The translations under genes and the position numbers were made by a program. 64,000 nt of DNA from Gaertneriomyces semiglobifer. Its lineage: Eukaryota > Chytridiomycota > Chytridiomycetes > Spizellomycetales > Spizellomycetaceae. Below, in pieces: positions 23,201-59,244 of the stretch. Location of the stretch: contig JAHLKF010000001.1 of assembly GCA_025558075.1 (NCBI GenBank), positions 434,001 through 498,000 on the forward strand. Direction: 5' to 3'. The stretch's first letter is position 1. Every line of letters begins with the position of its first letter. The notes beneath the pieces are model-generated. The model had not been told where the DNA came from, did not search any database, and saw only the letters and a list, made by a program, of their open reading frames with translations.

Positions 23201-26200
23201 CTGTACGCTCCATGGCTTCACTTGCTACAACTGCAATGGAGCAAAAACCCGGGTTTGAACAGATTGTTCATGAGATCACTTTGAAAAACCAGGTGATGTT
23301 TTTGAATCCGCCGATTGAGGAGGCGCGTAAGGTGTGGTACGGCAGGCTCCATCGATGGCTTGGGAACATCTGTTCCCTGCGCCCAATTCAGAGCTCGAGC
23401 TACGAAATGAATATGGCACGCCAGGCTCCGGCGTCGAAGAAAAACTATGCCAGCTTGTTGGGCAAAGTTCGCGACTCTTTAGCCGTGTGTTATGCCACTG
23501 TTGAGAACAGAATCGACGAAGTTCAGAAGTATATGGCGCTTTGGTTGCAGTACCAATCATTATGGGACCTAGAGTCACACTTTGTGTATGAGCATCTTGG
23601 AAATGACCTTAAACTTTGGCAACAACTGGTCCTCGAAATCAAAAAGGCGCGCTCAACTTTTGACAACTCGGAAACAGAGAAATCATTCGGGCCTATAATC
23701 GTTGACTACGAGCAAGTACAATCCAAAGTTAACGCTAAGTACGACCAATGGCAAAGGGAGATAGTGAATCGATTTGGGGCCAACTTGGGTAGCGCCATGC
23801 GTACATTTCACGCCCACATCGCGAAGCAACGGAATGAACTGGAACAGTATTATAATGAGAGCGCTTCCACAGGGGAAACCGTCAGTTTCATTACTTTTGT
23901 CCAAGGGTTGAAACGAAATGTCCCGCAATGGTCAGATCAAGTGCAAGCGTTTAGGAGCAGCCAAAAAGTCCTTGAGCGCCAACGTTACCAATTCCCCAAT
24001 GATTGGCTATACGTGGATAACGTAGAAGGCGAATGGGGAGCGTTTGCAGACATATTGGGGAGAAAGGACAAGGCTATCCAAGATCAAATTGCTCCTCTTC
24101 AGGCAAAAATTATTGCGGAGGACAAGGCAGTGGAACAGAAGATGAAAGATTTAGTCGCGGAGTGGGAGAAAAAGAAACCGCTCAAAGGAGACATCAAGCC
24201 TTCCGACGCTCTTGGGTTACTGAACATTTTTGAGGGAAGACTAACGCGTCTGAAAGACGACTATGAACAAATCCGCAGTGCAAAGGACATACTGGCACTT
24301 GACCGCGGAGGAGACAGTAAGCTGCATTCTGTGTTGGAAGAGCTGCGCGATCTGAAAGGAGTGTGGGGTGCACTCTCCCAATTATGGGCTGAAATTGATG
24401 AAATTCGGGATATTCTTTGGAGCGTTGCAGTACCGCGCAAGATACGACAGTCGTTAGACCAATTGCTTGCTCGTACGAAAGAAATGCCCTCTCGGATGCG
24501 CCAGTACGCCGCCTTCGACTTTGCGCAAGACATGCTAAAGTCATATCTGAAAGTCAACACATTGGTCGGAGAATTAAAATCTGAAGCTATGCGCGAGAGA
24601 CATTGGAAGCAGCTTTTCAAGCACTTGAGGCTCGAAGGAAAGATTACCTTTATGGAGTTGACAGTTGGCCAGCTGTGGGATACTGATCTCACAAAAAATG
24701 AACCTATCATTAAAGACATCTCGACCGTTGCGCAGGGTGAGATGGCCCTCGAAGCGTTTTTGAGACAGCTCAAAGAGACTTGGTCTGCCTTTTCACTGGA
24801 GCTAGTTGTGTACCAGAACAAGTGTCGCTTAATCAGGGGATGGGATGATCTCTTTACTAAATGTTCGGAGAACATCAACTCCTTGTCAGCCATGAAACAC
24901 TCTCCGTACTTCAAAGTTTTTGAGGAAGAGGCACTCGCTTGGGAAGATAAACTCAATCGAATCCATGCGCTGTTCGACATATGGATAGATGTGCAGAGGC
25001 AGTGGGTCTACTTGGAGGGAATTTTTTCTGCAAGTGCCGACATCAAGCACCTGCTCCCCGTGGAAACGTCACGATTTCACAGCATCAATGCTGAGTTCAT
25101 GTCTTTGATGAAGAAGGTTTATAAGTCACCGTTAGTGCTCGACATTCTCGGTATCGCAGGAATACAGAAATCGATGGAACGACTTGCCGATTTACTATCT
25201 AAAGTTCAGCGCGCGCTCGGTGACTACCTTGAACGCGAGCGCTCATCGTTTCCACGGTTTTATTTCGTCGGAGATGAAGACCTTCTCGACCTCATTGGTA
25301 ATGGTAAGGATATTGGCAAGGTTCAAAAACACTTGAGAAAGATGTTTGCTGGCATTGCTAGTGTGCTACTCAACGAGGATGGTAGTGCGATCGTTGGATT
25401 CTCGTCGCGAGAAAGGGAGTCCGTGGATCTTAAACGTCCGATCTTGCTTAAGGACAATTCACACGTAAACGCGTGGCTTGGTGCCCTAGAGAATGAAATG
25501 CGGGCTACCCTTGCTTCCCTCCTTTCCGATGCCATTTCTGAGATCAGCGGCCTGCACGAAGGCAGCGCGTTTGAGCCGGCGAAGTTCTCCGAATGGATGA
25601 ATAAGTACCCGGATCAGCTAATCATTCTGTCGATGCAAGTTCTGTGGACCCAATCCGTCGAGAAAGCTTTGAGTGGCGGGAAGAAACTAGCCACTGTCCA
25701 AGGGGTCATAGAGAACGGTCTAGAGATCCTTGCGAGCTTGGTTTTGCAAAAGCTGCCCACAGTTAGACGCAAGAAATGCGAACATCTCATTACTGAACTC
25801 GTTCATCAGAGAGATGTGATCCGCAATCTCATTCGCGCTCACACACAGTCAGTGGATGATTTCCAATGGTTATACCACATGCGGTACTACTTTCGAGCAG
25901 TAGCTGATCCCGCAGAGTGTCTCACAATTGCAATGGCGGATGCCACGTTCATATACGGATTCGAGTACCTAGGAGTGGCAGACCGACTGGTGCAAACGCC
26001 CCTCACAGATCGCTGTTACTTGACTCTCACACAAGCCCTGCATTCTCGCCTGGGTGGAAGCCCCTTCGGACCCGCTGGGACTGGTAAAACAGAGAGTGTT
26101 AAAGCACTAGGCGCCCAACTTGGACGATTCGTACTCGTATTCTGTTGTGACGAAAATTTCGACTTCCAAGCCATGGGACGCATTTTCATAGGACTATGCC

Positions 26201-29200
26201 GTGTGGGCGCTTGGGGCTGTTTCGACGAATTCAATCGTCTGGAAGAACGTATCCTTTCTGCCGTTTCTCAGCAAATTCAGACAATCCAGCTTGGGTTGAA
26301 GCGAGATGCGGAAATCGAGCTAGTAAACAAACAATTCAAAGTTAATCGCGATACTGGTATTTTCATAACGATGAACCCTGGTTATGCCGGGCGGTCAAAC
26401 CTACCCGATAATTTGAAGAAGTTGTTCAGGAGTGTAGCGATGACGAAACCTGACAAGGAATTAATCGCTCAGGTTATGCTCTACTCGCAAGGGTTCCGGA
26501 CTGCCGAAGAGCTTGCCTCGAAAGTCGTGCCTCTGTTTGTGTTGTGTAACGAGCAGTTATCACCACAAGATCATTATGATTTCGGCCTTCGCTCTTTGAA
26601 AAGTGTTCTGACAAGTGCTGGTAATCTGAAACGAGAAGAGCTACAAATGAGTGGGGCCAGCACAGGAGGCCACGGTGACTCTCTTTTTGAACAGAAACTG
26701 CTGATTCGTAGTATCCGAGAGACAGTGATGCCAAAATTGGTATCGGATGACATTAAGCTTCTCCAAGGATTGCTGGACGATGTCTTTCCTGGTGTGCATT
26801 ATGTCCCAGTTGATTTGAAAGTTTTGAAAGAAGCATTGAAGGCTGTTTGTCTGGAAAGAAGGCTGGTTGCTGATGGCCCTTGGTTGGACAAGGTGATTCA
26901 GTTGTATCAAATTCAGGAAATTCATCACGGGCTCATGATGGTCGGTCCCTCGGGCTCCGGAAAAAGTATGGCACATCGCGTTCTGCTGGAGGCGCTGCAT
27001 AGAGTGGAAGGTATTGAAGGCCTATCCTACGTTATCGATCCTAAAGCGATGTCGAAGGAAATTCTGTATGGCCATATGGATCCGACAACGCGCGAATGGA
27101 CAGACGGACTGTTCACACATATCATGAGAAAGATTGTAGATAATGTCCGTGGTGAAGCTACAAAACGGCATTGGATTATATTCGATGGTGACGTGGACCC
27201 CGAGTGGGTGGAAAACCTTAACTCCGTCTTGGACGACAACAAGCTTTTGACCTTACCAAATGGGGAGCGGTTGAGCCTACCGCCTAACGTACGAATCATG
27301 TTCGAAGTCGAGGATCTGAAACAGGCTACTCTAGCAACCGTTAGTCGCTGTGGAATGGTGTGGTTTAGTGAAGAAACGGTTGGAGTCGAGCTCTTGGTGC
27401 ACAATTACTTAGAGACATTACGTACTGTCATCCTGAGCGACATTGACGAATATCCCGCCTTCGCTGACAAAGGAGCTGTGGTCGACCCATCGGCGACGGA
27501 ATCGCCTGTAGTTGAGGCACAACGCATGATTGCTGAGATTCTGGCACCCCACCTTAAGGCAGGTGGCTCGGTGATGCGAGCGCTTGATTTTGCAGCGTCG
27601 CTAGAGCATATCATGGACTTTACGCGGATTCAAGCTTTGAGTTCCTTTTTCACCCTCCTGAACAGTACAGTGAGGATTGCTTTGCAGTATAACGACGCAC
27701 ATCCTGATTTTCCATTGAGTTTGTCTCAGTTGGAGACGTATGTTAGCAAACGCATGTGCCTCGCTATTGTCTGGAGTTTTGCCGGGAGTTCCCGCTTGGA
27801 AACCCGAAGAAAACTTGGGCAATTCTTGCATGGTAGCCTCGCCATTGACTTCCCCCCTGACGATCGATCCGTAATTGATTTCGATGTGGATGTGGCTACT
27901 GGGGCCTGGGTTGACTGGGTGGCTAGGGTACCAACGGTCGAAATAGAGACGCACAATGTCGGGGCAGCGGACGTTGTAATTCCTACTTTAGACACACTTC
28001 GCCATGAAGAAGTTCTGTATTCATGGTTATCGGAACATAGGCCACTGGTTCTGTGTGGACCTCCTGGTTCCGGCAAAACCATGACCTTGTTCTCAGCGCT
28101 TCGAAAATTACCGGGTATGGAGGTTGTGGGGCTGAACTTTTCCAGTGCGACCACTCCGGATTTGATTTTACGGACACTGGAGCAATACTGTGAGTACCGG
28201 AAAACTCCTCATGGAATCATACTCTCACCGCGAACTACTGGTCCGTGGCTGGTTCTATTTTGTGACGAGATCAACCTGCCAGCACGTGATAAGTATGGTA
28301 CACAGAGAGTAATTTCGTTTATCCGTCAGCTTGTGGAGTACGGAGGATTCTGGAGAAGCTCCGACAAGGCTTGGGTCCACCTCGAGCGCATTCAATTTGT
28401 GGGGGCGTGTAATCCGCCAACGGATCCTGGTCGCGTCCCGTTATCTCACCGATTCCTGCGTCATGCGCCAGTCATCATGGTCGATTACCCTGGGGAGAAC
28501 TCATTACTTCAGATATACAACACATTCGCCCGAGCTATGCTTAAAGTTGTCCCATCCTTGCGTGGTTATGCTGAGCCGTTGACGGCAGCCATGGTAGAAT
28601 TCTATCGCGCGTCTCAATCCAGGTTCACGCCGGATATACAGGCTCATTACGTCTATTCCCCTCGAGAACTCACTCGGTGGATGCGCGGTATTTTTGAAGC
28701 AATCAAGCCCGTGGAAGACTTACCTCTAGAAGGGCTTGTTCGAATCTGGGCACATGAAGCTCTACGGCTTTTCCAGGACCGTTTGGTGACGCCCGACGAG
28801 CGACAGTGGACTGACACAATGCTTGATTCTGTCGCGCTGAAACACTTCCCCGGTATTGATCCTCGTGCGTCCCTTGCACGCCCCATCCTATTTTCGAACT
28901 GGCTGTCCAAGCACTATACATCCGTTCAACAGAAGGAGCTCCGTGAGTACGTGAGAGCACGCCTGAAAGATTTCTATGAAGAGGAGCTTGATGTACCATT
29001 GGTTCTCTTTAACGATGTGCTGGAGCATGTCCTACGTATTGACCGGGTGTACAGGCAGATGCAAGGTCACTTACTATTAATCGGTGTCAGTGGGTCCGGG
29101 AAAACGACCCTCTCGCGTTTTGTTGCTTGGATGAACGGGTTGGCCGTGTTTCAAATTGAAGTTCACAATAAGTACTCCGCAGCAGACTTTGACGAAGATT

Positions 29201-32200
29201 TGCGGACTGTGCTCAGAAGAGCAGGTTGTAAAGGAGAGAAAATCTGCTTTATTATGGACGAGTCTAATGTCTTAGATTCCGGCTTTCTGGAAAAGATGAA
29301 TACCTTACTCGCGAACGCTGAGATTCCGGGGTTATTTGAAGGGGACGACTATTTGGCCCTAATGAGTGCATGTAAGGAGTCCGCACAACGAAACGGGCTA
29401 ATGTTAGACACTCCGGAGGAACTACATAAGTGGTTCACGACGCAGGTCATGGCCAATTTGCATGTGGTATTTACGATGAACCCACCAGCGGGAGGGCTGG
29501 CTTCTCGCGCGGCGACATCACCGGCGCTCTTCAACCGTTGCGTACTTGACTGGTTTGGTGACTGGTCTGACCAGGCATTATTCCAAGTCGGGAAAGAATT
29601 TACGCACGCGCTTGATCTCGACAAACCCAGCTACCATGCTCCTGTAGATTTTCCCATGGCCTACCAGGAGCTTAGCCTACCTCCTTTATATAGAGACGCT
29701 GTCGTCAACGCATTCGTCTATGTTCACAAGTCTTTGCAGGAGGCAAACCAAAAGCTTTTCCGACGGGAAGGCAAGCATTTCCATATAACTCCACGACATT
29801 ACTTGGATTTCATTAACCATTACGTAAATCTGTTCCGTGAAAAGCGTGAGGATCTTGAAGATCGACAACGGCATCTGAACGTCGGTTTAGAAAAGTTGGA
29901 AGAAACGGTGTTGAAGGTTGAAGAATTGCGAAAGAGTCTCGCTGTTAAACGTGCCGAGTTAGAGGCGAAAACGTCGGAGGCCAACGAAAAGCTAGGAAAG
30001 ATGTTAAGGGATCAGAAAGAAGCAGAAGCGCAACAACGGTCATCTCTCGAGATCCAGGAAGATATTGCGCGTCAGGATCGTGAGATTGCTGAGAGAGCGG
30101 AAGTCGTCAAGCATGATCTTGCCGAAGCGGAACCGGCTGTAGCTGAGGCGCAGAATAGTGTCAGTAGTATCAAGAAGCAGCATCTTCAAGAAGTAAGAAC
30201 GATGGGTAACCCCCCAGAAATGGTGAAACTGGCAATGGAATCTGTTTGTATTCTATTGGGTCACAAGGTGGACACGTGGAAAACCGTTCAGACCATCATC
30301 AGGCGGGACGACTTCATCCCGAGCATCATCAATTACGACACCGAAAAAATGAGTGCGCGTGTTCGAGATGAAGTCGAGCGGACGTACCTCAGTAACCCAA
30401 AATACAACTTTGAAGCTGTAAACCGCGCTAGTCAAGCATGTGGGCCGCTTGTACAATGGGTCATTGCGCAAGTTAAGTACGCCTCGATTTTGGAGCGGGT
30501 CGGTCCTCTTCGGGAGGAAGTAAAGCAATTGGAGGAAAGCGCCCGAGTTACCAAGCGCAAGGGTGACGCTATTCAGCAGATGGTCAAAGATTTGGAGAAC
30601 AGTATTGCCCGATACAAGGAAGAATATGCTGTTCTCATCAGTCAGACCCAGGCGCTCAAGTCGGAAATGGAAAATGTGCAGATTAAGGTCGAGCGCAGTC
30701 TGCGTTTGCTGGAAAACCTGTCTTCTGAGAAAGAACGATGGGAATCTGGAAGTCAATCCTTCGAGTCCCAAATGGCTACAGTGGTGGGCGATGTTCTTCT
30801 TTCCTCGGCATTCTTGGCGTACGCGGGTTACTTCGGCCAAATGGATCGAGAGATGCTGATGCGGAAGTGGGCAGCGCACTTGAGCAGTGCTTCCATCCAA
30901 TTTAGACGCGAGTTGTCCGTCCCAGATTATCTGTCCATCGCCGATGAGCGGCTCGCCTGGCAAGCAAATTCCTTGCCGTCGGACAGGTTATGCACAGAAA
31001 ATGCAATAGTCCTGAAGCGCTTCAATAGATATCCCCTTCTCATCGACCCAGCCGGACAAGCGACGGCGTTCTTATTGAGCGAATATAAACACCGCAAGTT
31101 GATGGTCACTAGCTTCCTGGACGATTCGTTCATCAAGGTTCTTGAAAGTGCTCTTCGGTTCGGCAACCCGCTTCTCGTCCAAGACGTCGAGTACATGGAT
31201 CCAATCCTCAACCCTGTTCTGAATAAAGAAGTAAGACGGGCTGGAGGACGCGTTCTGATACGCTTGGGCGGACAGGACATCGACTTTTCGCCTTCTTTCA
31301 CCTTGTTTTTGTCGACTCGGGATCCGTCAATGTCCTTTTCTCCGGACTTATCCAGCCGCGTAACTTTCGTCAATTTCACGATTACTCGCGAGAGCCTACA
31401 GAGTCAGTGTTTGCACAAAGTACTGAGGGCTGAGCGACCGGACACCGACAGCAAACGAACGGATTTGCTAAAATTGCAGGGAGAATTCCAATTACGCCTC
31501 CGTCACCTAGAGCATTCCCTGTTGCAAGCGCTGAACTCTTCTAAAGGGAATATTTTAGATGATGATACGGTAATTGCTACTTTGGAAACACTGAAACAGG
31601 AGGCCGCGGAAATCACCCGGAAAGTGGAAGAGACGGATTTGATCATGCAAGAGGTGGAAAGTGTAACAGCACTATACACACCCTTGGCGCAAGCGTGTAG
31701 TGCAATATTTTTCGTATTGGAGCAACTGAACGTCATCAACCGCTTTTATCAATTTTCTCTGGCGTTCTTCCTCGACATATTTCATTGCGTCTTGCACAAG
31801 AATCCGAGTCTCAACCAGCTGCGGGACCCCACACAACGTTTGGAAATTTTGGAGAGTGACATCTTCCACGTCACTTTCCGTCGTACCTCGCGTGCTCTCA
31901 TTCACGACGATCAAATCACCCTAGCGGTGATGTTAGCGCATATCAAAACTCGGGGAAGCTCCAACGGTGTCAGTGATCGGGAACTCCGGTTCCTTGTAGG
32001 AGACAATGGGATCACATCGTCTGAAAAGTTGGCACTAATGTCAAGCAAAATATCCCATTTGTTCGGAGACGATGTGAGTCGCAAAATTGCTGAATGCGCC
32101 CAAGTTCCAGCGTTCAGTGGGCTCGCAACCCACATGGAAACCAATCCAGAAGTGTGGAGCACCTTCAGGTCGGCGATTACACCAGAGTTGCAGGTACCTC

Positions 32201-34404
32201 AGTGGAACGACGGTACTGACCGGGGTAAGTTCTTTTTCATAGAGGAGGCTCCTTCTTGCACCCATGAACTGCGCTGATGGTTCATTTTGCCCCTTCCCTC
32301 AGTCTCCTCGGCCTTCCGAAACCTAATTGTTCTGAAATGCCTCCGACCAGACCGTGTTGTGCCGGCAATGAGCATTTTCATTCAATCGGTCTTTGGAGAA
32401 ACCTTCCTCAGCAATACAGACGTGGACCTCAAAGCCATCACGATGGAAGAAATCACGGAACCGATTCCCATTGTGTTCTGCTCTGTACCAGGAACGGATG
32501 CCAGTTACAGAGTGGAGAACCTTGCAACCGAGACTTCGTCTCGAATGACTTCTGTGGCGATGGGTTCGGCCGAAGGGTTTACTTTAGCAGAGACCGCTAT
32601 CAACAGCGCTGTGAAGAACGGGACCTGGGTTTTGCTGAAAAATGTTCATCTGGCTCCCTCCTGGTTGAGCCAACTTGAGAAACGATTGAACGGCTTGAAG
32701 ACAAATCCGAGCTTCCGCTTATTCCTTACAATGGAGCTGAACCCCAAAGTTCCTGTGAATTTGCTTCGTGCCTCTAGAATTCTCATGTTTGAGCCATTGC
32801 CGGGGCTGAAAGCGAACGTTAATCAGTCATTGACGTCGATTCCTATTTCGCGACTCAAGCCTCCAAGTGAACGTGTGCGGTTATACTTCCTGCTGGCCTG
32901 GCTTCATGCTGTTGTTCAGGAGCGCCTTCGATATGTTCCCTTGGGTTGGTCCAAACTGTACGAGTTCAATGACTCTGATCAAGACATGGCCTTCAATGTG
33001 ATCGATACCTGGATGGATAAGGTTTCGCAAGGACGGGCCAACATCCCACCGGAGCGCATACCCTGGGAAGCGTTGCGTATTCTGTTGAAACAGACAGTGT
33101 ATGGAGGGAAAATTGACAACCACTTTGATCAGAAAGTCCTGGACAGCTTTGTAGATCGTCTGTTCACTCCTCAAAGCTATGAGCTCAATCATCCGTTAGT
33201 AAATGAAGCTGACGGCATCCCTGGTGTCCCCATGCCCGATGGGATTCGCCTAGATCAGTTTGTGCAGTGGATAAACCGTATGCCCGACCAGCAGCCTCCC
33301 ACGTGGTTGGGCCTGCCTAACAATGCGGAAGTTTTGAGAATGACACTGAGTGGTACGTTCCTGTGCGGTGAGCGTTTTCCTGTATGCCAGGATTAACACA
33401 TGCTTCTAGGAAGTGCTATTTTGAAAAACGTGAAGAAGCTACGTAGTGCAACGGACGAGGACGAAGTTGACGTTGCCTCTGCTGATTTCGGGCGGGACCA
33501 TACATCAACTCGGCCGGTTTGGATGAAGACGCTACACACCATAGTGTCAACCTGGCTGAAGATTTTGCCTCCAACCATAACTTGCATGCCCACTGGAAGC
33601 AAAGATGTCCGTGACTCTCTGCGTCAATTCTTCGAACGCGAACACAAACTGGGACGCGAACTACTGAGCATCATTCGCAGCGATTTAACCGATCTGCAGG
33701 GGATGTGCGAAGGAACACAGAAGTGTACCAATCACCTTCGAGCGCTCTCTGATGCCCTCACGAACGGCTCTATGCCTGCAGATTGGTTGCGCTATAAAGT
33801 ACCTGGTACCATTCTGCCGAATGAGTGGGTTGCTGACTTCGTCAAACGTTTGGAACAACTCCAAAAAATTGCCACATCCCAGACCCAGGTACTGCCCACA
33901 ATATGGTTGGGAGGTCTGTTTATGCCTGAGGCGTTCGTAAGCGCCACGAGGCAGGCGGCCGCACACGTGCGAGATTGTTCCTTGGAAGAATTGGAGTTGG
34001 AAGTGTCCGTTCTCCCCAGCGGTCGGACAGATGGAGCTGAAACCGTCGGTTTTCCACTGTCAGGTAAGGATCCTACAGGCATCGGTTGCGCTTGGGTGTG
34101 CCCACCTAATTTCGCCTCCTCAGGTCTTCGTTTGGAAGGTGCCACTTGGACGGACACTGGACTCATGTTCACTACTGAAGCATCACCACTTCTTTCAACG
34201 CCTATTCCCATAAGCCTGAAATGGATTGACCGGAAGGAGGCGGCTTCCAGAACAGTTCCTGGAACGCATCAGGTTACACTGCCTGTATACCTAAACGATG
34301 ACCGGCAGGATCTTTTGTTCACTGCACCGCTAATGGTTAAGGACGCTACGGATACCCTGAAACTTATTCAACGATCTGTAGCCATCGTTGCTAGCTCTCT
34401 GTAA
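20293..34404 (+). CDS. DYN1: Cytoplasmic dynein 1 heavy chain
   Basis: The minus-end-directed microtubule motor subunit. Five exons (20293-20542, 20603-32224, 32303-33352, 33410-34063, 34124-34404) give about 4,618 residues, near human DYNC1H1 (about 4,646). P-loops lie at about residues 1906 (GPAGTGKTES, AAA1), 2198 (GPSGSGKSMA, AAA2), 2569 (GPPGSGKTMT, AAA3) and 2911 (GVSGSGKTTL, AAA4); the AAA1 Walker B is CFDEFNR. The stalk coiled coil flanks a microtubule-binding domain around 30150-30500 (GNPPEMVKLAMESVCILLG, NPKYNFEAVNRASQACGP). The tail and the C-terminal domain (RLEGATWTDTGLMF) are complete. The stalk sequence is of cytoplasmic, not axonemal, type. The last intron (60 nt) has no stop and is in frame, so retention would add 20 residues. 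Confidence 0.97.
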
Positions 34405-46172: not shown

Positions 46173-47549
46173 CTATCTTCTCCGCATCCACATCATTGTA
46201 GCAATACCCACAGCGCCAACAATAGCGACTCCTGCCAGTACTATCTGCATCGAGCTAGCATCCATTGTGTCGCTTCTCCTTCTTCGGCGTTTAGTTGCCT
46301 TCGCACGCGTGATGCCTTCTCCGGACACAGGACGTTCGGCGTAATTCAGGTCAGAGAGGGCTGCAGGGACATCTTCGCCAGCGAAAATGCCCTCCCCAGT
46401 GAGCACTTTACGCACCATGGATTGCACGTCCACACTGTTTTCGGCGGCGATCCCAGTGGCATTGCGCACTTCACGCTCCATCTCAATCAGTTGTGTTATC
46501 TGGTCTTCGTTCAAGAGATCCAAAGGAGGGGGATATGCCAACCCAGAATCGCTCATTTTTGCCTCACGAAATAGGTCGACAGCCTTGGCAGCATCTTGGT
46601 GAATACCAAAGCCGTGCAAATAATGCAATCCGAGGGACCAAGTTGATTGCGGATGGCGCAACTCATGCGCGGCTTTAAAATGCTCAAGTGCGGAGGCAAG
46701 GTGATCCAGATAACCGGCAGAATGAAGGTTAGAATGAAGGACGGCCATGCGATGGTGAGCCATCGCTAGTAACGGATGCTCTGACTGTCCAAAGTGTGCA
46801 AGTAACGCGGGGATTCTGGCGAGATAGTGAATTGCTTGCTCCGTTGCTTCGTACGATGGTTGGATATCATCTGCATTGGTAGCTATTGGAGCAAGCTGGT
46901 CGGCTACCAAAAAACATGCCTCAGCTGAGCCAGCTTGGGCTGCCCTTTCGTGGTATTCCAATGCTTTCTTCAGATCTCGTTCTACGGGAATTTCTGGATG
47001 CGCTTCTTTTCCAATAGTATACCATGCCCCAAGCTTAAGCGATGCCGGGATTGAACCGCGACTAGATGCAGAGGCAAAGTACGGCAGAGCCCGCGTGGCA
47101 TTGCGGAGACGACCCAGAAGCCACGATGCAAGCAGATATAGGGAATGCGGATCCAAATCGTCCAGTGGTGCGTCTTTCGGAATGGGCGCGCCAACAATGC
47201 GGCCAGATGAAAACAAGACAGGAAAGGTAACCGAGGATCCGAACAGATCCGGGACCTTTTTGAGCGTTATGGAAAGGATGTGGTTTTGTACGGTGTGCGA
47301 TGATTCGGCAGCGTTAATGGGTTGGAAAAAGTGTCCTTCGAGAACCGTTCGAGATCCTATTCTAACCAGAGCACTTTGGTCTTGCAACCCAAGATCTACT
47401 TCGTCCGCGGATTCCGTTGGTAGCAACGGGATGGTTACGGTGAGGATATCATCGTTCTGCTCTACTTTGTATGCGTCCCCATCAAGAAACGAGGTTGGCG
47501 GTGACACGGCGCCGTTTGGCCATTCTTCATTCGCCGTGGTTCCCATCAT
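46173..47549 (-). CDS. Tail-anchored protein with CS (p23-like) domain and Sel1-type repeats
   Basis: Single exon, 458 residues (a second ATG directly follows the first). Residues about 25-120 look like a CS/p23 fold (YKVEQNDDILTVTIPLLP, VRIGSRTVLEGHFFQ, ILSITLKKV), a co-chaperone-type domain. The middle holds helical TPR/Sel1-like repeats (ALEYHERAAQAGSAEACFL, ALEHFKAAHELRHPQSTWSL, GLHYLHGFGIHQDAAKAVDL). A basic KRRRRR stretch precedes a C-terminal membrane segment (IVLAGVAIVGAVGIATMMWM) ending RRR, the pattern of a tail anchor. A membrane-bound chaperone adaptor is a reasonable inference; no named orthologue. Confidence 0.75.
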   Translation of the reverse strand: MMGTTANEEWPNGAVSPPTSFLDGDAYKVEQNDDILTVTIPLLPTESADEVDLGLQDQSALVRIGSRTVLEGHFFQPINAAESSHTVQNHILSITLKKVPDLFGSSVTFPVLFSSGRIVGAPIPKDAPLDDLDPHSLYLLASWLLGRLRNATRALPYFASASSRGSIPASLKLGAWYTIGKEAHPEIPVERDLKKALEYHERAAQAGSAEACFLVADQLAPIATNADDIQPSYEATEQAIHYLARIPALLAHFGQSEHPLLAMAHHRMAVLHSNLHSAGYLDHLASALEHFKAAHELRHPQSTWSLGLHYLHGFGIHQDAAKAVDLFREAKMSDSGLAYPPPLDLLNEDQITQLIEMEREVRNATGIAAENSVDVQSMVRKVLTGEGIFAGEDVPAALSDLNYAERPVSGEGITRAKATKRRRRRSDTMDASSMQIVLAGVAIVGAVGIATMMWMRRR

Positions 47550-48682
47550 CTCTGTCGTCCTTATGTTCCGTCCACCGATACGTTCGTGCTCTCGCTGGTA
47601 ACTCTGTTAAATCGAAAAAGACTGTTATTAAACTTGTTGACACATTGAAACTGATCACATGATCTCGGTTACATTTATCACGTGTACTTAATGAGCACGT
47701 GATATTATTGACAGTGGGAAAATGTTGAAAGTAACTGCTCAGTTACGCGATCCGATACAGCCGTGGGGGATGTTGGAGTTTGTATTGCAACTGCGACATG
47801 GCCTCATGGAAAAAATAAAACTGGGGCTCATGCAAGTCAGGCCAAGCCCGCAGGTCCGCTTTTCCGGGGGTCGACCGACGTCAAGTTTGGCAGCTACGTT
47901 CGATCACCAACATGTAGCTGCTAAACTTGGTGTCGATCGGTCTATCATTTAGACGTACCTTGACGAACTGTCAGGGAAGGCGGGAGGTCATCCGGTTGCG
48001 GGAAGAGCCCCGTCGGGTAAAAAAGGCAGAGATATCCTGGTGGGAGGAACTAGCTGCGCAAGATCACGACGCCCGTGACGTGCGCAATTATGGCTGACTT
48101 CTCAAACGCTTCAGATGAGCGTACTCCCGGAGGGACCATGCCCGCGCAAAGACGCAAATAGATGTCCCCGGGTGCAAAACGGTTAAATGGAATGAGCAGG
48201 TGGACAGCACTTGGGTGCAAGCGGTTGCAAGGGGACATTCAATGTGTAATATGTATATGTAGTACATTCAGAAGATGCTATAGATGACAGACATTACATT
48301 TGAATACCAACGAAGTTAAACATAATAGACTTGCACGGCCGCTTATTGTGACCGAACAATTGTAAACCGAACATGCATTCAATCACACCTTGGCGCGATG
48401 TGTAGTTTCCCATTAAATTGTTGGGAGAAACTGGATTTTATCAAAAGCTGCATGCTGGACAATACTATAAACAAGTGCTATATAAAACCCAGTAGCCATG
48501 AAGGATACAATTGTGTGCATTGGCAAGGCAGTTTATTACATGATATACGACAATCAGAGCACCTTTTTCTCTGGCTCCGTAAAAGCAGCGATGCAAGTCA
48601 CACTGATCAAGTGGCAATGAAACAATCCGGCAAGCGTATTACAATTGTTTATCGTCTCACGTACATGTGCAGTACCAGTTCA
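47550..48682. other. Intergenic region, 1.1 kb
   Basis: Between the CS/Sel1 gene start and the 3' end of the ILK-like gene. It contains the CACGTG inverted repeat listed separately. A 76-codon plus-strand frame (47722-47952) has no family signal and is not called. Confidence 0.4.
47676..47704. promoter_or_regulatory. Inverted repeat with two CACGTG cores
   Basis: TATCACGTG at 47676-47684 and its exact reverse complement CACGTGATA at 47696-47704 are separated by 11 nt. CACGTG is the E-box bound by bHLH factors (Cbf1/Pho4-like). It lies about 130 bp upstream of the minus-strand CS/Sel1 gene start. Two palindromic sites at this spacing suggest a regulatory element; function is inference. Confidence 0.5.
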
Positions 48683-50334
48683 CTACGCGTTCCACCGCTC
48701 ATCCAGTAAGGTTCTCACAACTTTATCAGCAGCAGGCCGGCCCGCGGGACTCTGCATCCAACACGCAGTCATCAAAAATGCCAAGTGTGTTGGAACCCAT
48801 TCGGGTATCTTTGGTCGTAACCCTTCCAACGCCACCTTCATTCCGATGACTGTAGCATTCATTAATTCGTATGGATATGCTCGTGTGACCACTTCATGCA
48901 GGAAAATGCCATATGCATAGATGTCCGCTGCAGTGAGAAACTTGATCATGTTCTCCTTTTGGTTTGAAGCAGTGCTGATGTTTTCGAGCGAAGAATGGGA
49001 GGTGGAAAGCGGTGGTGGGAGAAACGCAGAGCTCTCCCCACGGAGAATTTCCGGTGCTAGCCATTCGACGTCGTAAAGGTATTTGTTGGTAGGGAGACGC
49101 GGTGTGAAGCCTGGAGGGAGGGACGACATGTGGTGATGGAAGCCGTAGTCTGTAAGCTTCACGGTACCGTCTGGTGCGAGCTGTGTACGACGTATCATGA
49201 GTTTGTGATAACGTATTCGCCAAAAAGGCAAAGGTTCTACTCACTAGGACATTTCCACTCTTCAAGCCCCCATGAGGTACACCCTTCTCATGTAGATATT
49301 GCAGCCCTTTCGCAACGCCAATACACATTTCCATGGCCATTGCCTGGGTCATTTCACACGCGGGATCATGCAAGAACGCATAGGCACTTCCGTGTTCCAC
49401 CCATGCGGTGACAACGCCAGTTCCAATATCAGCTGCGCTGAATGCCAGAATCGGGTGTAAAGCGGCGTTCACACCAACTTTGCGTAATTCATTGACGCAC
49501 TCCCGAAACGCTTCTCTTTGCTCCTCGGCTGCAACAACTGGAGTCAACTTGACAACGACCGTGTAATTGTTCCACTTGCCCATGCGTGAAACCGTTGGGG
49601 GATGAGACGCGGTGGGTAGGGAGTGCGTTATGTAGCGTGTAGTAGGTAGGATGTCATCGGTGAGCTGAACAGCTCTGGGAGAGATTTCAAAATCAACCCC
49701 GGCACGGGTGAGGAAGCGAGCTTTGGCTTCCTCCTTTGCTTGTTGAAAGGTTCGTGCGGGTGCTAACAGTGGCGTCAATGACGCCGTAACCTCTATTACA
49801 TGAAATGTGGCGAATGAGTTACGAGCTGGCAAACGCAAGAAAGAACAGACGGTGGAACCTACCTCCAAGTATGGCAGCGATCTCTCCACCTGGTGCTTTG
49901 TCCACGGGCATTCGGCCATACTTATTCTTGACAGCAGCATATGCACCCGCTTCTTTAAAGAGGATATTCACAATTTCAGTCCATCTGAAGAACACGGCGT
50001 AATGCAAAGGGGCATTGCCGTGGTCATTCGCCTTGTTGGCATCCGCGCCGGCCTTGACGAGTGCACGCACTACCTCGACATAACCTTTCCGGGCTGCCAG
50101 AGAGAGAGGCGTGTCACCCGCAACATTAATTGCATTAATGATTTCTGCAGCATTGGGTTGAGCGAGAATGTAGTCCACTACGGCTTGGTGATTCGCATGC
50201 GCTGCATGATGCAAGAGCGTCCAATCGTGGGTATCTCTGGAAAGTATGCCAGCGTCGACAGTCTCTGGATCTTCTAAGAGGCTTTTGAGGTCATCAAGGG
50301 AGGATGCTGCCGCAGTGAAAAGCGACACAACCAT
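48683..50334 (-). CDS. ILK: Integrin-linked-kinase-like ankyrin pseudokinase
   Basis: Three exons (50334-49863, 49792-49245, 49180-48683) give 505 residues; human ILK has 452. N-terminal ankyrin repeats include DWTLLHHAAHANHQAVVDYI, GDTPLSLAARKGYVEVVRAL, NDHGNAPLHYAVFFRW and NKYGRMPVDKAPG. The last two align by eye with ILK NEHGNVPLHYACFWG and NKYGEMPVDKA. The kinase-like domain has a beta3 lysine (K239 in TVVVKLT), but the HRD site reads HGG (331-333), so the catalytic aspartate is missing. DYG stands at 351-353 and APE at 382-384. IGMKVALEGLRPKIPEWV near the end matches ILK IGMKVALEGLRPTIPPGI almost exactly. A scaffolding pseudokinase is inferred. No transmembrane segment. Confidence 0.88.
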
Positions 50335-51201
50335 CGTCTCGGATTATGCAGCTGCTCGGTAAAACGTCTGAGGTTCAGTTCGCATCATCCGGTTGCAAAC
50401 CAGATCTTCGGAGACGACGCAGCAGATTCTATGGCTAGCTCACATATCTGAGTTTGATTCTGCCTGCAGCGTATTATGTAGTAGATTCTACTTTTAGGCA
50501 CTGACCAGTGCAAGTACGTGCAAAAACGCGAGAGCAACCTGCAGACGTGAGGGCATATTTCAACGGATCAAACGCATGCAACGCTTTCTTTAGGAGGAAG
50601 AATTGGACAGGAGAATGGTTGTCGGTAGAAGGGTAGCAAAGTAGGCCTTAAACGACAGGCACGTTGGGACTTTGTCGATACACCCAGTTGCTTCCGGTTC
50701 CTCAGCATCGCATCAAATATTTGAAGCAAGTCTGCTTGCCGGAACAGTGTAAGAATATCCAGTGACGAGGACTTTCTAGTTAGCGATCGGGTGTTTGTTG
50801 GTTGAACGGATTCACCGAACGCCTGTGATGCTCTACCGGAAGGTCATGACTGAAGCTTTCGGAAACTCCAACTTTCCAGTTCGGTTCCACTATGTTTGAA
50901 ATGTTGCGGATAGTAGTCCACCCTCAATGCTTGTTTACCACTATGTTTTAGCGTACCGGATCGTTTACATTCTTCGATTGGGGTTGTCCGTTTCTTGCGC
51001 GCGACTCGCTTGGAATGCAGCTTTATATGTGAAATCGGCCACGAGTAGAGACCAGGTTTGTGCACATGCAGAAGTGTTTCTTCTCAGGCAGGAGAAACTC
51101 GCAATTGGGAGGAAACGAATTCTCTAGTGGAGCCCACAGAGGTACTGCATAGTTCTCGTAAATAATAAAGCAAACACAAAGATATGTCCCTCCTGAGTCC
51201 C
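50335..51201. other. Intergenic region, no supported gene
   Basis: Between the ILK-like gene start and the 3' end of the metalloprotease gene, both on the minus strand. Frames here are short and uncharacteristic; no repeat or RNA seen. Confidence 0.4.
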
Positions 51202-53921
51202 TCACTTCTTGGCTACTTTGATAAGCGGCTTACCGCCCTCCTCTGCACTCTGTAACTGTCCAGAACTCCAATACTTTTTCAACCGCACCGGGTATGTCAG
51301 CGGTTTGGACTTCCACAGTCTGACTCCCAGCCAGGTTAACGCGATGCCTAGCAGGACCAGAACAATCGCCGCAAAGATAAGCATTGGCTCGGTTGCCACT
51401 TCGTCCTGACTCTCCGTCGTGGCCGTTAAGAAATCTGAGTGAATAAAGAAATGAGAAAATGAGCTGCCCTCCGACCGCCGCTCAAGAGGGTGGTACCTGG
51501 TTTAACATCCTGATGTGAAATTTCCAACAGCCCCTGAGTGCCTTCAAGGTGGTCGGTATACTGGTGATCGTCATGTTCGAGGGCTTGGCTCTCTTCAACG
51601 ATGCATTTTCCCAAACTCTCGTCCTGGCCACAGACGCCCATCACACCTGCATTGCTGACACAAGCTGTTCCAGGTGATAGAGGCTTGAGAGGGCACTCAT
51701 CCGGATCTTGCGCAGACGGATCACAATGACTTTCGCTGGTGCATGGCGTCGCGTTTCTGCAAATGCGTTGGTGGTCCATTAACTTTCCGAATGGGTCACA
51801 GCATGGCTTTCGTCTGTTGTACGCGTTATCAAGGTTGGCTCTTGTCATAGAAGTCAGACGCCATGATAGCCTACCGGTCGCACACTCCGCTTCTCGTGTC
51901 CTTTTGGCATTCACCGTTCAAACATACTTGGGACTGGTCCCCAAATTCTCCACACAGAATCCCGTCGGATCGTTGAAAGAGCTGGCCAGTCTTATCTTTC
52001 AAAACGAAGCATCCGCGCTCGGGTGTATAACAGGAAAGCCTGCACATGAACTCCGGAGCCACCTCGAAACTAATTGTGCGTTTATCAGTACTTAATACGT
52101 ACTTCGCATAGGGAAGGAACATACGGGCACTCGGTATAGTTACGGCCTGGGAAGAGCATCTCACACTCATCCGGAGCTGTTGTACGCTGTACTGTCAATC
52201 ATTTTCCCACAGAAACGCATCAGACGATGAGCTTACCGTCGTAGCGTGTCCAAAGTTGCTCATCCTCTTCTGCGGTCTTTACCACATGTTATGAGCGCAA
52301 AGGGATCGCAAGTAAGTGACCTCAACCTTACCTTCATATTTGAGTGGTCTTGTTCTGTCAAGCAAGTGAGCTCGCCGCTCAGGACTTCCTCAATTGAAAA
52401 TTTGGAACACGGAGAAAAGGTTCTGGAGTGATGGGAATTGGTTGCGGACGGGTGCATTATATAAGGCTAGGGAGATGCGCATGAAAGGTCAATAGCCACG
52501 ATATTACATCATAAGTTCATTTAGGTAACCATACCTTGGTCGGTGTACAGTCTCCCGGATTGCCAGGAGGCACGGGATGGCTACCGTCTATGAACATGGG
52601 TTAACCATACCACAATTGCGGAAGCTATTAGTTTCATTTTCTCACCATGATCACTAGCAATGGCACAGCATGTCAGCAACCATTGAGTGAAGAGTTCGGA
52701 ACGCAGACGTCACTTACGAGCCCATTCCATGCCCAAGTTCATGAGCAACTGTCGACACGAACGTCGCACGGGAAACAATGGTGCTCCCAAAAAGCGGTGT
52801 CGATAGGCCGGTGTTATATCCCTGCGCAGAGCAGAGCCCACCATAGCGTTGTGAACGCGCGGTCTACGTTGCATACGAATCAAATGTCAGCTGATGGAAA
52901 AGCATCAAGTGAAATAAAGGAAAGGAATACTCACATATGCTATACCCAATGTAGGTTGGAAGTTCTGAAACGTCATCAAGTGGACGAGACATGCCGGTCC
53001 AAGATTAGGTAGATTGTTCTCTCGAACCACAGTAGACAGCTGATTCAGGAGTTGCACTGGGTCATTGGTCGGATGTCCTAGTCCGGTTGGGTCGGTGGGT
53101 GTACGTGCTACATACAAGTAACTGAAAAACTGTGCATGAGAACGCAAGACTAACGAAGTATCTGGAATATAAACTTACCTCAGGGGTGTCCCGATACCAA
53201 ACTCACTTCGAAAAATCGCGTCCACATCATTGACAATGGATGCAATGACCGTCTCAGTATCATCTCCAAAGACATTGTAGAATGTATAATCAGCAACGAC
53301 CGCAATCGGGCACTCCTTGCCTTTCGCCGTTCCGCGCCTGCCCAGTCCAGGGTCGTTCATATCCAGTGGACCGGGAATCAGCGGTTCAAACGGGTTATAT
53401 GAAACAATCTCCGGCGCATGTAGAGCCAAACATGATTCTTCGGGAAACTGATCAATGATTTCGTCATCGCGGTAAGTAATGGTTCTTCGAACCATCCGAC
53501 CTTCAGCATCCACATCTTGGACAACCTCGAAGTGGAGCGTTGTGGGTGTGCCGTCATCTGTTTGTCTATAGGTAATATGTCCTTCATACAGATCCTCTGC
53601 TAGACGAGCAAGGCTCACTTTGGAATCCGGATCTCCACGGACATATCCTTTTAAAAGCTGGACGCCTTCGAGCTGCGACTCCTGTTCATTTCCCTTGGGA
53701 TTGGCGTGCCGAAAATGTTGATGAAACGCAGTTGTACTGTTGGTGACGTCAAGCGTCAGTACGGTCTCATCTGCTATGGAAAGGCTAAGGGGCCAGTGGT
53801 TTTCTAAACTGGTGGATGCGCTCCTTCTACTATGCTTGATCTCGCGGGTGGCCTTGTAATTTGTCAGAGCGTGTGAGATGTCGCGGGTGCGATATTGCGC
53901 AGGTCGCCGTGAAGAACGCAT
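51202..53921 (-). CDS. Membrane-anchored ADAM/ADAMTS-like zinc metalloprotease
   Basis: Eleven exons: 53921-53179, 53121-52935, 52863-52718, 52653-52646 (8 nt), 52587-52535, 52466-52332, 52269-52237, 52186-52103, 52062-51875, 51756-51497, 51434-51202; about 689 residues. A prodomain-like N-terminal part leads to a reprolysin catalytic domain with HELGHGMGSDHD (zinc ligands H351, H355, H361; catalytic E352) and the Met-turn PYIMHPSA, then FSPCS. The Cys-rich part reads DECEMLFPG and SDGILCGEFGDQSQVCLNGEC, as in ADAMTS disintegrin-like domains. Residues ~631-652 are a membrane anchor (LIFAAIVLVLLGIALTWLG) with a basic cytosolic tail. No signal peptide follows the only nearby ATG, so the 5' end may be incomplete. 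Confidence 0.85.
52646..52653 (-). other. 8-nt micro-exon of the metalloprotease gene
   Basis: TGATCATG is flanked by gt...ttgctag upstream (intron 52717-52654, 64 nt) and gtgaga...ttcatag downstream (intron 52645-52588, 58 nt). Inclusion gives GSDHDGSH in frame and completes the adamalysin zinc motif. Skipping would delete the third zinc-ligand histidine and shift the frame. Confidence 0.85.
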
Positions 53922-54091
53922 CCTTGAAAGCCTTTTTCGTCTCACAATATGACGATGGAGCTACGTCTGTGTGGTATGGAAGGTTTACTGCAGCCTCAAA
54001 AACCCTCAAAATCCTCAAAATCGTCGCGCGCGGATTAATACGCGTGAACTCCGCGGAGTAGCCCACACGCGTTTCGGGCCTTTCGGCATCT

Positions 54092-56047: not shown

Positions 56048-59000
56048 TCAGGAAGCCTCTGGCCTAGTGCCGAGGCCACCTTTCCTGCAATCTGCTTCGT
56101 TCAACAGTTCCAATAGTGCTAGAACCTCGTTCGGACCAGACACTGACCATTTAGCTGCACTACACTTTTTGCCCACGGTTGCCGTAATAATGATCCTTCG
56201 CCGCCTTGTGGTGATGGGATGGTGTATCGTTGAAGAAGCCGGTGGGGTAGTGTGTAGTGGACGTTGGAGCAATGAAGAAATCATTGGAGTGGTGGACGCG
56301 GCGTTCGATGTGAGCGGAAACGACCTTGGACGAAGCGAAAAGTACTCGTCCGAAACGGAAAGGGGCGTTCCGGATATGGAAGAAGACGTAGACGTTGGTG
56401 AGGTAACTCCATCCGCAAAGTGGTCTTCATCAGGTGTTGGAGTATGTGGATATTCACTTTCATCTTCACCCAAGCTCATCACGCTCATACTCAATCCCAA
56501 TAGTTCGGTGCTCGGGCTTCCAGCGGTTGTATCATACGTGCTCTGAGATCCGGTATCGTGACGATGTTGATGTAGTTCTAGCCGCCTTAGATACTCAAAC
56601 ATATATTCATCTGCACGATCATCCCCGACACTGAAAATAAAGTCTACGCGTTCCCTGGTCGGTTCGCTGCTTGGAATGGTGCTTGCGGCCGGGATCCCGG
56701 GAGGGATGGCCTCTGACGCACCTTCTGTATATCCATCCAAACCGGACGTAAGAGAACGGTGCTTGGTCAGCATTCTTGTTTCGGGAGCGCTGATACCTAA
56801 TCCATCAGTGCCGGATGCACTGATTACTGAGGCAACGGAGTAAGATCGCTTTGTGTGCCTCCCGCTCTTATTTTTGGCGAACCTCCCTTGATGATAGTCC
56901 AGCACCCTTCTCACCACGACACCTTTATTGACATTGCGCGGCAGCACCTCAATGCTCCTTTTTTTGGCAAGCGTATGAATGGCATAACTGCTGCTGAGTG
57001 CTTGTTCGATATGATTTTGACACTCTGCGGCCTGCCAGCTTCCAAATGCCATGTCCGCATATCCATAGTGCCAAACCATGCCGATCTCCTTTTGCTCAAT
57101 GTAACTGCCTGGTGTTCGGTCCTGGTAGTATTCAAATATTTCAAGCACACGTTCCCGCCACGACAGATCCAAGTCCGGAAGTAAGGTCTCCCACGTGGAT
57201 CGATTAGCGTATTTAAGGAAGCATCCGTTTTCGGCGCAGATTCCCACATTAGGCATATTTTCGAACGGAGCAAGTTCGGACTTTAATCTTCCAGACATAA
57301 TGTATACAATATTCTTCGGGTTCGTGGTAAGCTGTTGTAAAATGCGAATGACGTGCGATTCGGGAATTCGTGTGGATAACAGTTTGGTCGAGGAGTGTTT
57401 GTTGAAGTTAGTAAGTGTACCGTCGTGGTCCAGAAGGAATAGTCGCTTGCGGGATTGGATGTACTCAGATACAACCATATTGGATGGTAACGGTGGGATT
57501 GTGGTCGACAGTGTGCGTTCCATATCCTCATGAGCCTTGATGAGTTCAGTGACGAAGGTCTCAACGTACGCCTGCGCCGTGTTGCCGATGATATGAGAAT
57601 ACAGCTCGTTCCATCGGTAAGCTTTCTCCTCCTCAGTCATAGTAATTGCTTCGTGAATTGTGTCGGCAACCTCAGGAACGTCCCACGGGTTGATTCTCAA
57701 GGCCGCACCGAAACTTCCATAAGTGCCCGCAAATTCTGAGATTATTAAAGGGCCACGGTTAGCTTCCTGGCATACGACGTACTCATGACTCGTAAGGTTC
57801 ATTCCATCTCTCAGACTCGTGATCAGACACGCATCAGCGACAGACAAAATAGCAAGGTAATGGCTGTAGCTAATGTCTTGATAGAGATAGATAACCGGAG
57901 AATACTCAATGGTGCCAAAGCGCGAGTTGATGCGAGCAACTACGTCCGAAACGCGCGTTTCACTCTCGTTGGCTTCAGTCGTGCTAAGCGCCACTTGAAT
58001 CAGCACCACTTTGCCCTGCCATTCGGGATGCTCTTTCAGGAACCTCTCATACGCCAGCATCTTTTGCCGTACTCCTTTGACGTAGTCGTTCTTGTCCCGG
58101 CCGACAAGTACTTTCATGCCGGCATACTTTTCACGCAAAGATGCTACAATTTCCGCCACTTCTGGGTTGCGCCGCTTTTCATCTAAAGCTTCAAGATGAA
58201 TGCCGATCGGAATTGGCATGACAGCGACCAATCGATCCTCAAGTTGAACTCCTCTTGGTGTGGATTCGACAGCCAAAAGCCTGGTACACGTCATCAAAAA
58301 ATGTCTCATAAAGGAGTATGTCTGAAATCCGATCATGTCCGCTCCGAGCATTCCGCGCAGTATATCTTTCCGCACATGCAAGCACCGGAAGATTTCTGAA
58401 CTGGGAAAGGGGATATGTAAAAAGAATCCAATTGTGGCATTGGGAACAAGCTCACGTAGCAGGGCAGGGACAAGCATTAAATGGTAATCGTTGATCCACA
58501 CGGCGTCACCCGGCTGATATTGTCGGGCAATCGCTTCCGCAAATTTACGATTCACAGCTAGATACATATCCCAAGCCTTCTTGTCGTAAGCCTGCCCGCT
58601 TGGATAGTCCGGTAATTGATAGTGGAAAGGCTTCCAAAGGACCTGTTTGCAGAACTGGTTGTAGTGGCCTTCGAGTTCCTCATCGGTGACAAATACTGGT
58701 ACACAGCCGTACTCTTCAAGCATTTTACGATCAACATTAGACTTCGTGGTATCACTCCATTCTTTGGTGCTTACGCCTAGCATGCCAAACCAAATAGGCT
58801 TCCCAATGCGACCAACTGATGCTTTGACTGCATTTTGCAAGCCAATATTTCCGAGATTCGATGGCTCTACATGCCACCATAATGGATCAGGCCGCAATCC
58901 TCTGCTATCGCTTTGTCTCCTCTGTCTCTTGAATTCTGTTGCACCAACACTTCGCCTGCGTTGCAGTGTATCGCTTGATGAAGGCAACGAAGCGTCTACC

Positions 59001-59244
59001 ACGATGGTGTATGGAGAAAATAAACTTGCGATGAGCGTGCGGGTTTGCGTTAGAGCCGGGTTCGGAAGATCGGTAGCAGCGACGGTTCGTTGAGAAGCCG
59101 GACTGGAGGCTTCGTCTTGAGAGAGATCGTCCTCATCTTCCACTGCGGTATCGCGGGTTAGCAGCCATTCACATACTTTTCCATCTTTAATCAGAAGAAC
59201 CACTCACTGAAGAAGACGGGTTGCGTGTCAGCAGATGCAGGCAT
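56048..59244 (-). CDS. TPS2: Trehalose-6-phosphate phosphatase, Tps2-type (GT20 + TPP)
   Basis: Makes trehalose from trehalose-6-phosphate. Exons 59244-59208 and 59142-56048 give 1,043 residues; the intron was inferred because splicing supplies a true ATG (MPASADTQPVFF) and keeps frame. The GT20 domain has WINDYHLMLVPALLRE, GFFLHIPFPSSEIFR and SLRDGMNLTSHEY. It lacks the N-terminal SNRLP block, and GRDKNDYVKG replaces the usual GVDRLDYIKG, so synthase activity is probably lost, as in Tps2. The phosphatase domain is intact: DHDGTLT at ~584, YIMSGR, NKGVVVRRVLDY and FSVGDDRADEYMF near 850. About 120 Ser/Thr/Pro-rich residues separate GDDRADE from the final core strand (ITATVGKKCSAAKW). Confidence 0.92.

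Follow-up and report, generated by a model that had tools for sequence, protein, structure and literature searches.

Does a gene that resembles animal integrin-linked kinase (ILK), encountered in a zoosporic fungus, represent a true orthologue of this protein, can its product still transfer phosphate, and what might it do apart from integrins? The gene is located in a stretch of 64,000 nucleotides (the window) that sits in a 1.96 Mb contig of the 20.9 Mb genome assembly of the chytrid Gaertneriomyces semiglobifer (order Spizellomycetales); this origin bears out the zoosporic host that an initial annotation, made from the DNA letters alone, had proposed. The same annotation had presented an ILK in a fungus as a surprise, and this surprise is smaller than claimed, given that the ILK-PINCH-parvin (IPP) proteins, ILK included, have been on record in integrin-less basal fungi since 2016 (PMC5042518). 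Calkins and Youssef (2016) report IPP proteins but no integrin for Orpinomyces, and a set of such parts that varies among basal fungi (PMC5042518). ILK in basal fungi is already in print there, and the G. semiglobifer gene is a further member. As in Orpinomyces sp. C1A and the other basal fungi described in that source, IPP and further scaffold proteins occur in G. semiglobifer, a zoosporic fungus, with no integrin found. The gene provides a distant comparison for the long dispute about whether ILK is a kinase or not, and for a role of the IPP proteins apart from integrins. Orpinomyces sp. C1A belongs to another lineage, and the text of PMC5042518 that was considered does not examine how the active site or the partner interfaces of ILK are built; a literature search by titles and abstract openings, with the main surveys outside it, likewise returned no such analysis for any fungal ILK.

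The ILK gene is read from the minus strand, with a start codon at window position 50334 and a stop at 48683, both ends being exact, and consists of three exons and two GT-AG introns (Table 1). Its joined product of 505 amino acids (about 450-500 are expected for the ILK family) is identical over its full length (100%) to a G. semiglobifer database protein that is labeled only as a 'kinase-like domain-containing protein' and is not named ILK. The ILK-type order of domains read by the initial annotation is confirmed by Pfam: N-terminal ankyrin repeats (1.7e-23), whose best stretches fall within residues 8-122 (about the first 125), are followed by a C-terminal kinase-like domain (5.5e-32) that starts at residue 230. 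With these scores, the resemblance to ILK is not a matter of chance. The landmarks quoted from the protein also lie where they had been placed (K239, HGG at residues 331-333, NDHGNAPLHYAVFF at 103-116, NKYGRMPVDKA at 137-147 and IGMKVALEGLRP at 452-463). An AlphaFold model of the protein was poor (mean pLDDT 57.8; residues 181-291 below 50) and was left unused.

Table 1. Features of the G. semiglobifer ILK gene, in window coordinates.
Feature	Position	Strand	Basis
Exon 1: ATG and ankyrin repeats, residues 1-157	49863..50334	-	Gene model; product equals database protein
Intron 1, 70 nt, GT-AG	49793..49862	-	Agrees with database protein
Exon 2: linker, N-lobe, catalytic loop as far as GNVL	49245..49792	-	Gene model, database protein
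Intron 2, 64 nt, GT-AG, directly after catalytic loop	49181..49244	-	Gene model, database protein
Exon 3: DYG motif, APE, C-lobe, stop codon	48683..49180	-	Gene model, database protein
Ankyrin signature NDHGNAPLHYAVFF, residues 103-116, PINCH-facing by alignment	49987..50028	-	Aligned to human H99, F109, W110 (W110 is F here); roles from PMC3871693
Beta-3 lysine K239	49548..49550	-	Sequence check
Catalytic loop HGGLKSGN, with Gly where the catalytic Asp would be; Lys and Asn retained	49251..49274	-	Sequence comparison
DYG (DFG equivalent), metal-binding Asp retained	49142..49150	-	Sequence comparison
IGMKVALEGLRP, residues 452-463, parvin-facing by alignment (human M402, K403)	48812..48847	-	Alignment; roles from PMC3871693
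Segment aligned to human ILK K423-I427, kindlin-2 site (F and A here)	48764..48778	-	Alignment; PMC13342944

Protein searches, with the best 120 of 300 matches considered in that with the 505-residue product, yielded six further chytrid proteins with the same ankyrin and kinase-like build. They stem from five other genera, namely Spizellomyces, Geranomyces (two proteins), Powellomyces, Thoreauomyces (represented by a partial entry) and Entophlyctis, a member of a different order, the Chytridiales. The existence of these proteins in other genera argues against animal contamination, and this explanation was rejected, given the short introns, the length of the contig and the fact that the closest full-length relatives listed are chytrid proteins. 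A search with residues 420-505 returned only the query itself among 20 candidates. Among the protein matches listed, none carried the name of an animal ILK; one of them, P0011, is animal-like. In one of the relatives, the ILK of Geranomyces michiganensis (P0123), the predicted C-terminus diverges from that of the other chytrids past alpha-G, perhaps as the result of a gene-model error.

For comparison with the animal protein we used a human ILK sequence that agrees with the PDB chains 3KMU and 3F6Q from almost one end to the other. Animal ILK resembles the chytrid proteins in carrying ankyrin repeats ahead of a kinase-like domain, in its PINCH- and parvin-facing segments and in the missing catalytic Asp. 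An 'almost residue for residue' match to animal ILK had been claimed; this holds for the quoted segments, with IGMKVALEGLRP of G. semiglobifer being identical to human ILK over its 12 residues, and fails for the protein as a whole, whose identity to human ILK amounts to 30.6% over 435 aligned positions (26-33% among the chytrids).

When the kinase-like domain of human ILK was searched against the G. semiglobifer genome, the ILK gene came first (exons at 54.2 and 25.4 bits; next gene 46.8), which supplies the reciprocal match that the initial annotation had named as a check. In a single-sequence search of the PDB, ILK was the top match (83.8 bits), ahead of a B-Raf fusion (76.7 bits), while the corresponding full-length search was swamped by designed ankyrin proteins. 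A profile built from the kinase-like domains of four of the seven chytrid proteins scored the plant kinase CTR1 (171.3 bits) above ILK (167.5 bits); both CTR1 and B-Raf, members of the TKL kinases, thus score in this domain much as ILK does. The kinase-domain phylogeny has a similarly divided outcome. In a tree of 27 kinase domains, the ILKs of animals and of chytrids come out together in a single clade (support 94/92, just under the strict threshold of the tool), and a topology that joins chytrid ILK with CTR1 is 10.6 log units worse and is not rejected (p-AU 0.08). This tree was calculated without P0123 (cut C-terminus), P0134, P0136, P0137, two of the three domains of P0125, and the partial kinases L058, L059, L062, L063, L064, L067 and L069 of the genome itself. 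Taken alone, the kinase domain would favor ILK without proving it.

Two motifs separate the ILKs from other proteins. The ankyrin signature HGNxx[LM]HYAxF[WF] and the alpha-G motif were each present in 8/8 ILKs and in 0/150 other proteins among the matches listed, both patterns having been composed once the ILK sequences had been inspected. Neither CTR1 nor B-Raf is known to have the ILK ankyrin signature. The crystal form of CTR1 (3ppz) has intact HRD and DFG motifs and is devoid of the alpha-G motif in the aligned stretch.

The partner proteins of ILK are encoded as well. A PINCH gene is present at C4:270868-272108 on the plus strand, with five LIM-type segments recognized by eye. Its LIM2-4 region together with the start of LIM5 scores 100 bits to PINCH versus 85 to paxillin, and LIM1 scores 46.7 to PINCH LIM1, no individual paxillin domain exceeding 34.7; when whole chains are compared for LIM1, a two-domain paxillin is ahead (51.2 versus 47.0) because its two LIM domains add up. 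The LIM1 segment CFVCHQC aligns with human CFVCAQC, and the actin-binding tail is, as judged by eye, loosely kept, with two hydrophobic positions retained and VRN in place of LKK. A parvin gene extends from C13:147114 to about 148297. Three collinear matches to human alpha-parvin at C13:147114-148057 (E 5e-6, 0.016 and 0.049, two of the three being weak singly) lead to joined exons with scores of 39.7-43.6 bits against six parvin sequences, the next match having an E-value of 0.6. With the Pfam CH model, 17 matches were obtained in the genome, none of them at the parvin gene, which the parvin query did find. The chytrid parvin segment FFVPL aligns with YFVPL of beta-parvin, and Phe307 of alpha-parvin, in the same stretch, occupies a pocket of ILK according to PMC8591738. 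Further candidates for a scaffold are a talin-like gene on C28 (FERM match), a vinculin gene at C1:1052916-1055567 and, by eye, paxillin-like genes on C17 and C2 and an alpha-actinin-like gene on C30. The search for partners that had been suggested was therefore successful for PINCH and parvin and left integrin unmatched: the models for integrin beta, integrin alpha and kindlin (PF00362, PF08441, PF18124) had 0 matches in the genome, and control genomes were equally unmatched. FERM matches were limited to the talin-like gene on C28, a MyTH4-FERM-type gene on C13 (by eye) and a weak third on C16, none of which was recognized as a kindlin. We provisionally regard integrin and kindlin as absent from this genome, and the joint presence of PINCH, parvin and ILK may represent the whole IPP scaffold. 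Since the kinase-domain evidence, the ankyrin signature and the partner genes point in the same direction when taken together, our clear preference, on the strength of these comparisons, is that the gene is a chytrid orthologue of ILK.

The active site of these proteins is eroded. The Asp of the HRD motif is lost in all seven chytrids (Asn in six, Gly in G. semiglobifer), with the Lys and Asn of the catalytic loop retained throughout (7/7). The Asp of the DFG motif persists in six and is Asn in P0123, and the beta-3 Lys is kept in three of the seven, the other four having Arg. The kinase-dead active site that had been deduced from HGG in place of HRD is supported by these data; the change from HRD to HGx, present in three of the seven including G. 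semiglobifer, is described as a frequent and recurrent one among pseudokinases (PMC4718504). Measured against an active ankyrin-TKL kinase, the G. semiglobifer protein has HGG for HRD and no Gly-rich loop visible by eye, with the Lys retained. In human ILK, ATP is reportedly held by N200, N202, the beta-3 lysine, D339 and K341 (PMC4718504). N200 and N202 are kept in none of the seven chytrids, in contrast to the animal protein, and the counterpart of K341 is, by motif, the Gly of DYG. What is shared with the human ATP site is the lysine in 3/7 chytrids and, if DYG is read as DVK, an Asp equivalent to D339 in 6/7, an equation that was made by motif, the automatic alignment having set D339 two columns off. 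The human catalytic region reads RHALNSRS and DVK, that of the chytrids Hx[NG]LKSxN and DYG (NYG in one), and human ILK has lost more active-site residues than the chytrid proteins. The catalytic Asp is missing in both lineages and its neighbors differ; one ancient loss is the simplest explanation, two separate losses, in animals and in chytrids, being possible. The loss of the catalytic Asp in seven chytrid ILKs, accompanied in four of them by that of the beta-3 Lys, argues for a scaffold role that predates the animals.

The conservation of the predicted surfaces is consistent with a scaffold role. Calculated with five of the seven chytrids, identity to human ILK averages 44% across ankyrin repeats 3-5 and 52% at alpha-G, as compared with 18-33% in six other regions; among the chytrids themselves, identity is 60-61% in the partner-facing regions versus 41-57% elsewhere, a modest margin. 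Judged by these alignments, the regions nearest to human ILK are the putative PINCH-facing ankyrins and the parvin-facing helix. In PMC3871693, the ILK variant H99D/F109A/W110A was designed to abolish PINCH binding (PINCH levels were not raised), and parvin binding is reportedly broken by M402A/K403A. H99 and F109 are kept in all seven chytrids and W110 in six, G. semiglobifer having F; M402 is kept in 6/7 and K403 is K or R in 6/7. N397, a parvin contact (PMC8591738), is replaced by A or S in 7/7. At the kindlin site the picture is a different one. Binding of kindlin-2 is strongly reduced by ILK K423D/I427E (PMC13342944). Unlike in animal ILK, I427 is found in none of the seven chytrids (Glu in two), and K423 is kept in four, P0123 being counted among the seven despite its unreliable C-terminus at these positions. 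G. semiglobifer has F and A there in place of the animal-type K423 and I427. R243 and R334 are kindlin contacts according to the title of a paper cited in PMC13342944; R243 is kept in 7/7 chytrids and R334 is present as K or R.

Other explanations can be weighed against this background. The gene could encode an independent ankyrin-TKL kinase of a plant or fungal type that came to resemble ILK by convergence and works outside any IPP complex. The marginal lead of CTR1 over ILK in the chytrid profile and the p-AU of 0.08 for a grouping of chytrid ILK with CTR1 are in its favor, and fungi do have ankyrin-TKL combinations, P0017 being an example. Convergence would have to account for ILK motifs in both domains, the reciprocal best match, the 94/92 grouping with animal ILK and the presence of genes for both PINCH and parvin, and we consider it unlikely.

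We attach still less probability to a true ILK that transfers phosphate by an unusual route through its lysine, the Asn of the catalytic loop and the Asp of DYG. K239, Asn338 and Asp351 are all retained in the G. semiglobifer protein, but the catalytic Asp has given way to Asn or Gly in 7/7 chytrids, the beta-3 Lys to Arg in 4/7 and the DYG Asp to Asn in one, the Gly-rich loop was not seen by eye, and the HGx found in three of the seven is a recurrent pseudokinase feature (PMC4718504). Equally hard to credit is an ILK relic devoid of IPP function that has been decaying slowly since integrin was lost. The unmatched integrin and kindlin models, silent in the control genomes too, and the replacement of W110 by F in G. 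semiglobifer would suit it, but the reading frame is open, homologues exist in five other genera (one partial, one with an odd C-terminus), the partner-facing regions are by the modest margin given above the best conserved among the chytrids, and PINCH and parvin are both retained.

The reading that we prefer, and hold to be probable, is that the chytrid ILK orthologue is a pseudokinase scaffold of a PINCH/parvin IPP complex on cortical actin, operating without integrin or kindlin. Its ankyrin repeats would hold LIM1 of PINCH and its kinase-like domain would hold parvin, thereby completing a complex that would bundle or anchor actin at the cell cortex, probably linked to it via paxillin, talin and vinculin, which are apparently encoded in the genome. 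Such a complex would dispense with phosphotransfer and, within the reach of the searches made here, with integrin and kindlin. In animals, actin is bundled by the tails of PINCH and parvin, ILK being the bridge, with no catalysis involved (PMC6203859), and direct bundling by the chytrid complex is plausible from the sequences. A Drosophila study consulted for a function of the IPP proteins that does not depend on integrin offered nothing of use. Zoospores of Batrachochytrium crawl by actin pseudopods, and it is the lack of specific adhesions that defines this mode (PMC5461030); those of Spizellomyces have an actin cortex that is followed by patches after encystment (PMC7213984). From this behavior, the IPP complex would be expected in the cortex of the zoospore or during encystment, and to serve the wall-less zoospore. 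We infer formation of the complex, its action on actin and this service from the comparisons above; a part in zoospore attachment or motility, as first proposed, may be envisaged on the same footing. Spizellomyces is genetically transformable (PMC7213984), and an integrin-less IPP complex is hence open to direct study in a crawling fungal zoospore. A wider reading, tentative and in our judgment somewhat more apt to fail than to hold, is that ILK was already a dead kinase before animals and fungi split and that the IPP core is by itself a scaffold for actin; the chytrids would have kept both partner interfaces as the ATP and kindlin sites drifted, and the zoospore IPP complex, free of integrin and kindlin, would have paxillin and talin, or else some membrane protein, as its anchor.

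Several other genes were noticed in the course of this work. Outside the window, L032 (G000:C6:782000-787000) apparently joins a calponin-homology segment and a Ser/Thr kinase domain in one frame (by eye). Upstream of ILK, the closest long gene (window 51200-53960, same minus strand) has the look of a metalloprotease of the ADAM/reprolysin type: HELGHGMGS, segments rich in Cys and a membrane helix at the C-terminus are recognized by eye, and Pfam Reprolysin_5 matches below its cut-off. Downstream, the nearest long reading frame (46173-47606, minus strand) combines a CS domain with a Sel1 repeat and, by eye, a C-terminal hydrophobic stretch. A dynein heavy chain gene occupies about 13.8 kb of the plus strand (20557-34404) in one frame, whose two in-frame stops can be placed in candidate introns with GT-AG borders (78 and 57 nt), alternatives to which exist. 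At 56048-59203 on the minus strand, a Glycosyltransferase 20 domain of the trehalose-phosphate synthase type and a trehalose phosphatase domain are encoded together in one frame.
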